Positions 59,301-64,000 of a DNA stretch of 64,000 bases are shown piece after piece. Where the stretch lies: contig PTFA01000017.1 in assembly GCA_003342895.1 (NCBI GenBank), positions 1,391,124-1,455,123 on the forward strand. The letters are read 5' to 3'. Within the stretch, counting starts at the first letter, position 1. Every line of letters begins with the position of its first letter. The DNA comes from Casuarius casuarius (taxonomy: Eukaryota > Chordata > Aves > Casuariiformes > Casuariidae). The notes under the pieces were generated by a model, which worked only from the letters and a program-made list of their open reading frames with translations, did not search any database and had not been told where the DNA came from. A program made the translations under genes and the position numbers.

Positions 59301-61785
59301 CATTTTTTTCACATGAGAGCGTTAATCCCAACAACGGAATAAGCAGAGGACACCTTACTTTGCATTTTTCAAAGTAGGAATGACATGCCAAGAATTACGT
59401 GCGTGAATAATTATTTAAGAAAAAATACAGGCAGCTTTGCCAAGTGCTACACATCAGGAAGTACTTTAATCCACATGACCAAAAAGCATTGTCTTCACCA
59501 GCGCTTTCATGATAGGAGTCTTTCCTATGACAGAACAGCTAAAACACATTGTTACACCTACAAAAAGTTTTGGTAACAGTTGTTTTGCACTATATTTCCT
59601 ACACTTTGTATGACAGATCATTTCTTACAAAGGTGCTTGAGTCAATCCAGGCATATGTTCACATATGAGATGACAGTAATTCAATGTTGTAAACTGAATT
59701 CTGCCTCCCATGATTACTTTTATCACTTGAAAATTAAATGGATTGAGGATGAGGAATGTAATTTTGCACTGCATTACGGTTCTTCTAACACAAAGCTGAC
59801 GTAAATCTTCATCAAGTTTCCTTCAAGCATGGAATGAACATCACCGCCACACAGCAGCAAGTGAAGGTGCCTGTCTTTTGCCTCACTTGACCAGCGAACT
59901 GTGGAAAGAAAATAAAATTCACCAAAAATTAAAATATTAAAGCCAAAGAAAGGTGAAAAGAGAGAAGGATATAAAAAACCCTTTCAGATACCTCTCAGAA
60001 GAAAATGTTTTATCCACATTTAATGTCTTCTGTGGGGTTATATGTTTTGAGTAAAATTTGCAGGGTAATTTACTTCTACGTCACAGCTGTACAGTTTTAG
60101 AGGACTAATCAAAAGTCATTTTGACCTAAAAAGCAGCATGTTTTGAGCATCAATGTACTCATGAAGAGGACTGTTCCCAAAGCAGTCTGCCCTGAGGGAG
60201 GACCTATGGAAGATGATCCCTTAAAACCTCCCTCCCTCCAGGTTTTGTCCCTCCAAGGCTTTGCAGGGAAGTGAGAAGAAACGCGACAGCCATGACGGCT
60301 TCTCTGGTTTCCACCAACCCAAGAGAACAAGCACAGCTGGGTGCGTTCGCACATGTTGTCAGCAGCTCTCCTGGCACTCGGAAGTGAAGCTGCAACCGTG
60401 AACGTGTAGGCCCTTGGTGGTTTTTTCCAAGTATTTCACTACAGAAAGAAAACTTTGAATTCCCCCTCCTCCGTGACAAAGCTGTGGCACTGCTCCCTCC
60501 CCATGCCACTGGTGAGGGCTGGGTCTCTCCTACCTTTTCGGGCTGCCAGATGATAATCTCTGGCAAAGGCCAGTCAGCTGCAGTACAGGTTCGCTGAACG
60601 GCCCCAGCAAAACCCTGCAGAGCTTCACTACAAGAAGTCAGGAGAAAAGAGCTGGATCGGGGTCTCCTCCAGGGCAAGGGGGAAGAAAACTATAGTGTAG
60701 CCTGTCCCTCTCTGGAGACATGCCATGCATCTGCCCAGGCCTGTGCTGCAGGATGCATCCCCTCTCCTGCACCCTCCACGAGCGCATCCCCCCAGGCTCC
60801 CGGGGAGACTACTTCACCCATGTTACGTCATCCTGGCCACCCTGGCCCTCTAGCCTGGAGACGTCTCCAAAGAGGCTGCTGTGAGCCCCACACCGCTGCT
60901 GCAGCTGATGACAGGGCAGCAGCAGCAATAAAATCTTCCAGCATACACACAGCTGCAGGCATTTATAACTAGGATGCTAGAGGTACTCAAAATCAGAAGA
61001 AAAATTGACTTTGCTAAATGTCATGGTCTAAGGAAGAAGCAGGCAAAAGAGCCCCTGCCCCAAGACGTGTAAACTATCATTTCCCTTTCAATTACCTGAG
61101 GCAGGGAATCCCCAACAATGGTCATATATCATGACTGGGCCCCTCGTGAATTGAAAGCACATAACTCAGCACACTTCTGGCAAATGCTGTCACCACCATT
61201 GCTGTCAGTGGTGATCACCTGCAGAAGAGGCCTGGGAAACCTTGCCCTGGTAAGAGGAGCCTTCGGACAGGCCTCTCATGGGTTTGGTGAGACTTGAGAG
61301 AGGCATCTGCAGTTGTCCGTTTGTCTCTTTGCTGAAACTTCCTTGCCGAGGAAATTAAGGGAAAACTGCTTGAAATTGTCATCACAGGCTATGAGTGGGG
61401 GAGCAGAAGATTGCACAGGCATTTCTGTGCTGGTACATGAAGGATAAATGTATGAAACAGTGACTTTCTTCCCCTTTAGCCTTTGCAACCACAATGAAAC
61501 TACGAAAAATACCTGTCCTATAGAGTACGAAATAGCTCCTTACATTGGGTGATTTACTGTCACTGCAATGAAGCACCTGGAAACAGTTATTGGCGCCCAA
61601 ATGCTGCTGTACAACTTACATGCTGTAGGGGCAGACAGCGAGGGATTGGACAAGATAGAGTTAAGGAGCCGAAAGCCTTGGGAGGAATAAATAGCAGTAT
61701 GTAGATAAGGTAGTAGCCGCACGGGATGAGAAGGAGTGATGATGGGAACTTGACCTTTGGGAAAGTACCGATCCGGGCTAGAGCT

Positions 61786-61793
61786 TATATAAA
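61786..61793 (+). promoter_or_regulatory. TATA box in the ERVK-like LTR
   Basis: TATATAAA within U3, 15 bp upstream of the AATAAA. It is a perfect core promoter match. Confidence 0.85.
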
Positions 61794-61808
61794 GGGCTTG
61801 CTTGCTTG

Positions 61809-61814
61809 AATAAA
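61809..61814 (+). terminator. Polyadenylation signal in the ERVK-like LTR
   Basis: AATAAA lies between the TATA box and the U5 end, so R/U5 should begin close to here. Confidence 0.8.
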
Positions 61815-61863
61815 GTTGATTCTGATCCAGCACATTGGAGTCCGTGAATCAGACCGCCACAAA

Positions 61864-61881
61864 TGGCGCCCGAACAGGGAC
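61864..61881 (+). promoter_or_regulatory. Primer binding site for tRNA-Lys3
   Basis: TGGCGCCCGAACAGGGAC is an exact 18-nt complement of the tRNA-Lys3 3' end, the primer used by lentiviruses and several betaretroviruses. It follows the LTR end by two bases, which fixes the LTR boundary and the element's orientation. Confidence 0.95.
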
Positions 61882-61953
61882 CGAAGACTGACTTCGTCCA
61901 GGGCTGTAGAGGCAGCGGTTAGCTGAACCGGTGGCGGAGCCCAGCTGAACAAA

Positions 61954-61998
61954 GAGCTGCTGAAAGGAAGCAGAAGGGGAGCCGCTGAAAGGAAACAG
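61954..61998 (+). repeat. 20-bp direct repeat in the retroviral leader
   Basis: GAGCTGCTGAAAGGAAGCAG (61954-61973) recurs as GAGCCGCTGAAAGGAAACAG (61979-61998), 18 of 20 identical and 5 bp apart. It lies between the primer binding site and the splice donor, where packaging signals reside. Confidence 0.85.
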
Positions 61999-62030
61999 CA
62001 TTGCGCGCAACAGGTTACCTACCGCTGGAC

Positions 62031-62495: not shown

Positions 62496-62510
62496 CTCTA
62501 TCCGCCTCTT
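62496..62510 (+). other. LYPxL-type late-domain motif in gag
   Basis: L-Y-P-P-L fits the LYPxL pattern bound by ALIX. It lies 36 codons after the PTAP, in the same frame. Confidence 0.6.
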
Positions 62511-62699
62511 AATACGCCTTGCTGTGTCCATCTTACGGCCCCTTCGGAACTACCGCCCCCTCAAGAGACGGGGCCGCCCGTGAGTGTGGACTGCCCACAA
62601 CCCCCCCACACTGACCCAGCTTCTGGGAAGGATCCATCGCCCCAGGGCCGCTTGGCGGGGCGTGACTACACCGGCCGGGGACGCCCCCCACCTGCCTTC

Positions 62700-63332
62700 T
62701 TCCCTCCCTCCTTTCCTTCCTGCCTTCCTTCACCTCCCGCCCGGCCCTTCCTCTCTCCGCCTGGTGCCTCCTCCACCTGGTGCCGCCACCGCCGAGCAGC
62801 AGGAGGAGGAACATGGTGAAAGCGGAGCAGGGCCTCAGCCTGGAACAGCAGCACTAGCTCAAATTCAAAGAGCCTTTAACAGATGTTGTCACCATAAACC
62901 TGAAGCTCGGCAATCCTACAGATAGAAATGTGTGCTTCAAAGTTAAGACCACAGCACCACATAGATACTGTGTAAGACCTAACAGTGCAATTATCGATGC
63001 AGGAACATCAATTAATGTTTCTGTGATGCTACAGCCTTTTGACTATGATCCTAATGAGAAAAGTAAACACAAGTTTATGGTTAAAAAAAAAAAAGAAAGA
63101 AAAAAGAAAAAAAAAAGAAACAGTCTATGCTTGCTCCAGCTGATACTTCAGATATGGAAGCAGTATGGAAAGAGGCAAAACCAGAAGAACTCATGCATTC
63201 GAAACTGAGGTGTGTGTTTGAGCTACCAACAGAAAATGATACGCTTTATGACATAGAAATGAGATTGTATCTACAACTGCAACAAAGACAGATTCTTCTG
63301 TAATGTCTAAATCAATAAGTCCCTCTTTGGAG
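62700..63332 (+). pseudogene. VAPB: VAPB retrocopy (codons 1 to about 162), intronless and disrupted
   Basis: VAPB is a tail-anchored ER protein whose MSP domain binds FFAT motifs at membrane contact sites. Co-linear codons 1-90 run without an indel from ATG 62813 to GTT 63080-63082. Diagnostic VAPB segments are GNPTDRNVCFKVKTTAP and INVSVMLQPFDYDPNEKSKH; VAPA has RNPSDRK and TVTVSV instead. Pro56 and the FFAT-pocket region HKFMV are retained. Codons 91-137 resume at 63121 (SDMEAVWKEAKPEELM, SKLRCVFELP) and the trace continues to SKSISPSL at about 63330. The coiled coil and transmembrane anchor (human 161-243) are absent. Lesions: TAG at codon 15 (62855-62857), a 38-nt A-rich insertion after codon 90, and a 4-nt deletion after codon 137. 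The GC-rich segment before the ATG is probably its 5' UTR. A contiguous cDNA with no introns means RNA-derived; no poly(A) tail is present at the 3' end. Confidence 0.92.
63083..63120 (+). repeat. 38-nt A-rich insertion splitting the VAPB copy
   Basis: A run of A with scattered G lies exactly between VAPB codons 90 (Val) and 91 (Gln), with no loss of VAPB bases on either side. Its length (38) shifts the frame. It resembles a poly(A) tail in composition but lies within the coding copy, and I see no flanking duplication. Confidence 0.9.
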
Positions 63333-63370
63333 GCACCCAGCTCGAGCTGTAATTACTGCACGTGTATCAT

Positions 63371-63474
63371 TAAAATTTAATTATTTAATTTGCTTTGATT
63401 TGGCTCTGAACTTTTCTGCGGGAACCTAGGGTCAGGCCCTGTTATGGTGGCCGACAAGCCTAATTTCCGTAACA
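63371..63474 (+). mobile_element. R/U5-like end of a second, gammaretrovirus-like LTR (U3 missing)
   Basis: The segment TTTGCTTTGATTTGGCTCTGAAC is followed by TTTCTGCGGGAACC and ends CCGTAACA, 3 bases before a primer binding site. This is what a gamma-type LTR R/U5 looks like, with an ATTAAA at 63371-63376 as a possible poly(A) signal. There is no TATA box and no TG start with a matching inverted repeat (TGTTACGG expected) between the VAPB copy and this point. The U3 is therefore absent or replaced. Left limit approximate. Confidence 0.6.
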
Positions 63475-63477
63475 GTT

Positions 63478-63495
63478 TGGCGACCCAGGTGGGAC
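63478..63495 (+). promoter_or_regulatory. Primer binding site of the second retrovirus, Arg-like
   Basis: TGGCGACCCAGGTGGGAC starts 3 bases after the CA that ends the LTR. From memory it matches the complement of tRNA-Arg(CCT) at 15 of 18 positions, and differs completely from the Lys3 site of the first element. Primer identity should be checked against avian tRNAs. Confidence 0.55.
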
Positions 63496-64000
63496 CCTGG
63501 GCGACCACTGTCGGGGCCTCTCGTCTCCAAATGATCATCTGGCGCCATCGGGTGAGTTCACCTGGGATCTTCTGGCAACGAGAGGCACCAAAAAGGTGAG
63601 TCTTAAATTCCTGCCTAAATTCTAAATTCTGGTCTGGTAACAGTGCACTGTAAGGGGTATGCGGGCTGGCCACCATAAGGCATACCAGGGGATGGGTGCG
63701 AGTCCCATCCCCAGGGTTTGAGTGGGTTTTGAGTCCCAGCTCGGTCCAGCCGGAAAGGGGAGTGCGCAGCCTGATCAGCATAAGGCACACCGCAAGACTG
63801 TAAGACAGAAGTCTAGAGTCACTGTGACTGGTGTGAGCGTGAACAGTACTGTGTGTGCAAGTGTGTATAGCCTGGGAACCGGCCGGGGTGCCTGTCGGCT
63901 GATGAAGCCACCCGCTGCGAAGGGACAGCAGTCCTAGCAGTTAAAGACTCGGGTGGTGTGAGTGCGGTTCCCAGAGAGTGAGAGAAAGAGAGTGTGTGAT
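63496..64000 (+). mobile_element. Leader of the second retrovirus, running off the window
   Basis: A GC-rich untranslated leader with no long sense frame. It has two splice-donor-like words, CGG|GTGAGT (GT at 63552) and AAAAG|GTGAGT (GT at 63596). It ends in a purine-rich (GAGA/GTGT) stretch. Short internal repeats include CATAAGGCA near 63675 and 63779. The 71-codon plus frame and 137-codon minus frame here have no recognisable similarity. The gag of this element is expected beyond 64000. Confidence 0.55.

Follow-up and report, generated by a model that had tools for sequence, protein, structure and literature searches.

The subject of this study is a 64,000-nt stretch of Casuarius casuarius DNA (contig PTFA01000017.1, positions 1,391,124 to 1,455,123; hereafter the window), which carries towards its end an intronless copy of the host gene VAPB within a retroviral element. 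This copy is flanked upstream by the long terminal repeat (LTR), primer-binding site and truncated gag of an ERVK-like virus, and downstream by sequence from the RNA 5′ end of a second retrovirus. It is considered probable, at roughly 0.85, that the element is a germline insertion from a family of defective, host-gene-carrying proviruses that was assembled in two steps and then spread. Assembly in two steps is argued for by six loci elsewhere in the genome that keep a joint between VAPB exon 6 and pol and, in the stretches read, are without the second virus.

Two layouts within a dispersed provirus family

The window copy is an LTR provirus, with paired LTRs bearing TG...CA ends, a primer-binding site, a polypurine tract before the 3′ LTR and a short target duplication. 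The matching 3′ LTR, which the original prediction had proposed should be sought, lies beyond the window at window coordinate 65292-65526, with 97.5 % BLAST identity to the 5′ LTR and a Kimura two-parameter (K2P) divergence of 0.013 for the pair. The duplication reads ACATGC at one flank and ACGTGC at the other, agreeing at 5 of 6 bases, with a CpG-type change at the one that differs. On account of this outer LTR pair and target duplication, the chimera is taken to have integrated whole, with a length of about 3.9 kb by the spacing of the assembly, which reads N in the inner 3′ part. The second retrovirus does not form the 3′ end of the element, since the element ends in the first virus's 3′ LTR.

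The layout of the window copy is termed form B: gag, VAPB to the middle of exon 5, then the repeat (R) and unique 5′ (U5) regions and leader of the second virus. A search of the genome (1.19 Gb) with positions 63395-64000, covering U5 and the second leader, returned 810 candidates. The 40 that were scored are the window itself (100 %) and 39 others at 92-96 % on many contigs, such that the element is dispersed rather than single-copy. Apart from the window, the 5′ side was read in all 39 copies and the 3′ side in 37 of them. The joint between VAPB and R is identical in 39/40 copies, the exception being the 5′-truncated L066, whilst gag adjoins the next segment (both sides of 62640/62641) in 36/40 and all seven segments stand in order in 35/40. 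Shared junctions in further copies, suggested earlier as a check, are thus found on both sides of the captured gene. Order is broken by assembly gaps (L013, L023), by deletions (L015, L059) and by the truncation of L066. The inner 3′ part of other form B copies consists of integrase-region pol. With regard to individual variants, L010 (C385:939-3944) holds the gag-VAPB part twice in tandem within one form B copy, and L093 is a form B copy with an inner deletion that starts just past the second primer site and reaches into a fragment of an LTR.

Target duplications were scored in the 33 copies with both LTRs readable, leaving out seven (two without the 3′ part, three with Ns in it, one without LTRs and one without a 5′ LTR). 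The 6-bp duplications are perfect in 25 copies, match at 5/6 bases in four (the window included) and at 4/6 or fewer in the remaining four; as a control, flanks taken from different copies match perfectly in 4/1056 pairings. Given this disparity, the copies are concluded to have inserted independently. Across 32 LTR pairs with at least 200 comparable sites, K2P has a median of 0.030 and a range of 0 to 0.071, with the L048 pair showing 0 differences over 232 sites. Taking a rate of 1-2 × 10−9 substitutions per site and year would place the window copy at about 3-6 million years, the median copy at about 8-15 million years and L048 as very recent.

The second layout, form A, comes from a protein search with rhea VAPB, which gave 139 matches at 81 loci. 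Five of these loci are pieces of the VAPB and VAPA genes themselves; the other 76 are a minimum figure and were read in part. Exon 6 sequence, which defines form A, is present at six of the 76, again a lower bound. At five of the six, VAPB runs through the end of exon 5 into approximately 80 nt of exon 6 (with an internal deletion in L100, and broken off at a contig end in L099), and in 6/6 exon 6 joins the same pol sequence at the same base. Beyond this joint, Pfam comparison of L096 and L097 identifies RNase H (20.4 bits, under the cutoff of 25.8) followed by the zinc-binding, core (6e-20) and C-terminal domains of integrase. The gag side is present in L096 and L097, and LTRs occur at L097 (5′) and L099 (3′), with 73-74 % likeness to those of the window. 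No R/U5 or second leader appears in the six form A stretches read, the one at L101 ending about 170 nt past the joint. Form A is a transducing layout, with spliced host mRNA bounded by viral sequence on both sides; the arrangement of a transduced host gene, as originally proposed, is therefore seen here in the position of VAPB between truncated gag and pol. The gag and pol of form A probably derive from one virus.

Comparison of the two layouts bears on their descent. In four form B copies, the inner 3′ part is 87-93 % identical to the pol of five form A copies, with the match starting about 280 nt past form A's VAPB/pol joint; the R/U5 and leader of the second virus thus took the place of VAPB's end and of the first stretch of the pol piece. 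In four copies other than that of the window, the second leader continues for about 100 nt more, after which the pol of the first virus follows. As form B is without VAPB sequence that form A has, the layout of form A is taken to be ancestral. Five VAPB positions are changed relative to the host gene in both forms (e.g. 36/36 form B and 4/4 form A copies at one, 37/37 and 4/4 at another), and five further changes are confined to form B (37/37, 38/38, 37/37, 35/38 and 35/37 copies, and 0/4 of form A). The changes common to both forms, together with an A-rich tract that both possess, indicate that one capture underlies the compared copies.

Features of the window copy

The component parts of the window copy are collected in Table 1. 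Those originally described were all recovered: the 5′ LTR, tRNA-Lys-type primer site and truncated gag are present at 61624-62640 and recur across copies, the VAPB cDNA joins exons 2-5 of the host gene without introns, and an R/U5, different primer site and leader follow it at 63332-64000.

Table 1. Features of the VAPB-carrying provirus that fall within the window
Feature	Position	Strand	Remarks
5′ copy of 6-bp target-site duplication, ACATGC	61618..61623	.	Partner ACGTGC beyond window
5′ LTR, first (ERVK-like) virus, 238 nt	61624..61861	+	TG...CA ends; matching 3′ LTR
First primer-binding site	61864..61881	+	39/40 copies with ≤4 edits, 27 exact
First virus's leader	61882..62061	+	Splice donor GTAAGC at 62035
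Truncated gag	62062..62640	+	Matrix/p10 frame up to 62328, different frame after it; approximate 3′ limit
GC-rich segment, presumed VAPB 5′ untranslated region	62641..62812	+	71.5 % GC; limits our own, gag/VAPB joint unplaced
VAPB cDNA, intronless	62813..63331	+	Start codon to middle of exon 5
A-rich tract, 38 nt, within exon 3 of captured VAPB	63083..63120	+	Also in 3 form A copies
Second retrovirus's R/U5	63332..63474	+	ATTAAA at 63369, ends CA; same start after VAPB in 39/40 copies
Second primer-binding site	63478..63495	+	40/40 copies with ≤4 edits, 24 exact
Second retrovirus's leader	63496..64000	+	Splice donors GTGAGT at 63552 and 63596

The intron-bearing VAPB gene of the same genome lies on contig C356. 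Its exons 2 (62869-63023), 3 (to 63165), 4 (63166-63244) and 5 (63248-63331) are represented in the window, with 3 unaligned bases separating the last two. Within exon 5 the match breaks off at 63331, beyond which the host gene continues differently, and the absence of a 3′ poly(A) tail at this point agrees with the original prediction. Comparison with PDB entries gives a mixed picture, with VAPB chains outscoring VAPA over 62858-63082 and a VAPA as the top chain, covering more residues, over 63118-63303; it is the match to the host VAPB gene that settles the identity of the captured gene as VAPB. Two candidate marks were discarded: the A-rich tract does not denote an exon joint, as it lies inside exon 3, and the residues ENDT are not a derived change, as the host VAPB gene itself has them. 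In L011, L017, L026, L061 and L062 the A-rich tract ends C-rich, with ACCCACCAACCAACAG or a sequence near to it, possibly reflecting an older state of the insert.

For the first virus, the 5′ LTR includes a TATA-like box at 61786 and AATAAA at 61809, and the primer-binding site at 61864-61881 is presumably of the tRNA-Lys3 type. The gag frame opens with an ATG at 62062 and stops at 62328, with an overlapping open frame in another phase. Its similarity to Pfam Gag_p10 (E 0.0055, 17.1 bits) falls under the cutoff of 23.9, and the primer site would fit an ERVK- or betaretrovirus-like virus; the two PDB matches of gag are weak (E 0.5 and 1.4) and concern other proteins. At an E-value of 0.01, Pfam returned nothing in ten stretches (nine long open reading frames outside the element and 62584-62925 inside it), and across the 64-kb window there was no Rfam match and no gene from a tRNA scan. 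Well upstream of the element, an inverted self-match of about 150 nt with 74 % identity forms an imperfect palindrome at 54491-54643.

The second primer-binding site is presumably of the tRNA-Arg type, and the second retrovirus may be gamma-like. No parent copy of this virus was present among the 40 scored of the 810 candidates, and a scan of viral contigs with primer-site patterns, gag and VAPB yielded no relative. L066, a match without VAPB, was considered as the parental second virus and rejected, as it is a 5′-truncated form B with the first virus's 3′ LTR.

Assembly of the element and competing explanations

In the first step of the proposed assembly, which the longer copies display, an ERVK-like virus would have taken up spliced VAPB mRNA, which came to lie behind a truncated gag and ahead of pol's RNase H end. 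In the second, for which the joints are visible and the path is conjectural, form A RNA would have been copied beside RNA of the second retrovirus, with a switch from pol to the second leader. Reverse transcriptase would then have copied the second primer site, U5 and R as far as the RNA 5′ end, where a forced return onto VAPB exon 5 would have generated form B. In nature, an R/U5 without a preceding unique 3′ region is confined to the 5′ end of viral RNA. Form B may thereafter have multiplied in trans with the proteins of other viruses, integrating from LTR to LTR at many sites. It is conceivable, if doubtful, that the second packaging leader allowed transcripts to be carried by the particles of two viruses unrelated to each other, thereby turning a rarer form A into a common form B.

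Capture by template switching, as put forward in the original prediction, is supported by a spliced cDNA inside a provirus, matching LTRs, a target duplication, the lack of a poly(A) tail at the 3′ joint, and joints that recur at dozens of independent insertions. The single round of reverse transcription that had been envisaged, joining ERVK, VAPB mRNA and the second virus at once, fares less well. Whilst all three parts are indeed present in the window, and VAPB adjoins R/U5 in 39/40 copies as such an event would produce, form A implies at least two steps: six loci join VAPB exon 6 straight to pol and hold a VAPB that is longer at its 3′ side than that of the window, form B cannot have regained the 3′ part it lost, and some VAPB changes are limited to form B. 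A one-step, three-template origin is accordingly judged unlikely.

Far less probable still is a processed pseudogene of VAPB, made by a long interspersed nuclear element-type mechanism, beside which the retroviruses inserted independently. The lack of introns and the existence of an A-rich tract are what such a copy would offer, but the tract is inside exon 3 rather than at the 3′ end, 63331 is not followed by a tail, the duplication encloses the LTRs and not the cDNA itself, and dozens of loci show the same joints, mostly inside LTR pairs flanked by target duplications. The production of few retrocopies in CR1-rich genomes, as described in the portion of the source available (PMC3136929), likewise counts against it, and a VAPB retrocopy with its own tail, named originally as the finding that would overturn capture, was seen at none of the loci read. 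To a similarly small degree, one might credit segmental DNA duplication with spreading a single chimeric provirus, given the internal gag-VAPB duplication of L010 and the 4/33 copies that match at 4/6 duplication bases or fewer; against this stand the 25/33 copies with perfect 6-bp duplications of their own, the rarity of agreement between flanks of different copies (4/1056) and the many contigs involved. An artefact of assembly at the joints is scarcely credible: the inner 3′ part of the window copy is indeed N, but the VAPB/R joint stands at 39/40 loci and two emu proteins span VAPB to the second primer site or leader.

Several points nevertheless weigh against two-step assembly and spread as set out above. 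VAPB exon 1 was not found, which leaves the gag-side 5′ joint unplaced; the start of R at 63332 is presumed rather than read from a parent copy; and no autonomous relative was identified for either virus. Form A is itself incomplete, with L101 comprising an exon 6 piece only, L100 being without gag and part of exons 4-5, and L098 and L099 interrupted by Ns or a contig end. Its LTRs are readable at 2/6 loci only and are 73-74 % like those of form B, and one VAPB change is found in 3/4 form A but 0/37 form B copies; this LTR difference and form A-only change suggest that form B descends from a relative of the surviving form A copies rather than from one of them. Moreover, divergence from the host gene for form A and form B, respectively, is 0.050 and 0.056 in exon 2, 0.080 and 0.068 in exon 4, and 0.017 and 0.060 in exon 5, and thus the mean does not make form A clearly older.

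Coding constraint, emu proteins and comparison with known systems

Variability by codon position was assessed among 37 copies, 3/40 being dropped for VAPB as they hold too little of it. For VAPB, the ratio of third to first and second positions is 0.79, a value reached or exceeded in 1699/2000 label shuffles; as third positions are no more variable than the others, VAPB looks like unconstrained cargo. For early gag (window 62062-62325), the ratio is 2.04 (0/2000 shuffles), or 2.42 without CpG columns (7/2000), and this twofold variability of third positions indicates that gag carried coding constraint, which arose either in the element's source lineage or via exchange with an autonomous virus. 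Later gag has a ratio of 1.65 (10/2000), a signal that vanishes without CpG columns. The earlier view that there is no sign of function consequently holds for VAPB, whereas early gag shows codon constraint. Open gag-VAPB frames are predicted in 5/40 copies, spanning 289-379 codons from an internal gag methionine, and the MGNG of the window's gag start is in none of these five. At C558:120101-120367, a VAPB match falls within an open frame given as 2790 codons, which is unusually long.

A protein database search with the VAPB piece gave 250 matches, of which the best 120 were considered. Amongst these 120, nine emu proteins carry family residues, and the short family motif QILL is also found in a fish protein (P0039). 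Two of the nine, P0042 and P0048, extend from VAPB as far as the second primer site or leader, and match the window once a predicted intron is removed. The longest exact match between the nine emu proteins and the loci read is 75 residues, and P0024 has a best identity in the host genome of 88 % over most of its length. The N-terminal extensions of P0040 and P0022 show no match to the upstream part of the window, and are uninformative on the gag joint.

Tumour viruses account for most of what is known of host-gene transduction by retroviruses. Like acutely transforming retroviruses, form A combines a truncated gag, a spliced host cDNA and a truncated pol; unlike them, the present elements are a germline family at many loci, with a membrane-contact protein as cargo, and transforming activity is not suggested. 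Capture of host genes by endogenous retroviruses (ERVs) is itself already on record, as seen from the accessible parts of two sources (PMC4299795, PMC5408686). In the first of these, as far as available, CrocERV29 and CrocERV31 resemble the family described here in that a host mRNA (KIT-ligand and nectin3) was captured by, and multiplied within, an ERV. The same portion of that source has nectin3 replacing env and both genes under purifying selection, whereas VAPB is located between gag and pol and is unconstrained; the addition of a second virus's RNA 5′ end is a further difference from the CrocERVs (PMC4299795). LTR-mediated retrocopies of animals and maize Bs1, according to the part of the second source available, involve the same template switching between LTR element and cellular mRNA, but here two retroviral RNAs and one host mRNA took part, with two stages preserved (PMC5408686). 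In a partial search, the titles and abstract openings of the literature found name no VAPB element, which is no claim of absence from print. The main text of PMC8310711, in the portion available, does not contain 'VAPB', its emu repeat library being placed in a supplement outside this check. Within this partial access to the literature, we have met no description of an element patched with the RNA 5′ end of another retrovirus in which both stages survive and form B is at high copy number.

These findings suggest that a set of VAPB-like emu proteins in databases (VAPB/C-like, e.g. P0024) are provirus copies rather than bird genes. Beyond this, two stages of assembly with exact common joints make switching between viral and cellular RNA readable from many copies.

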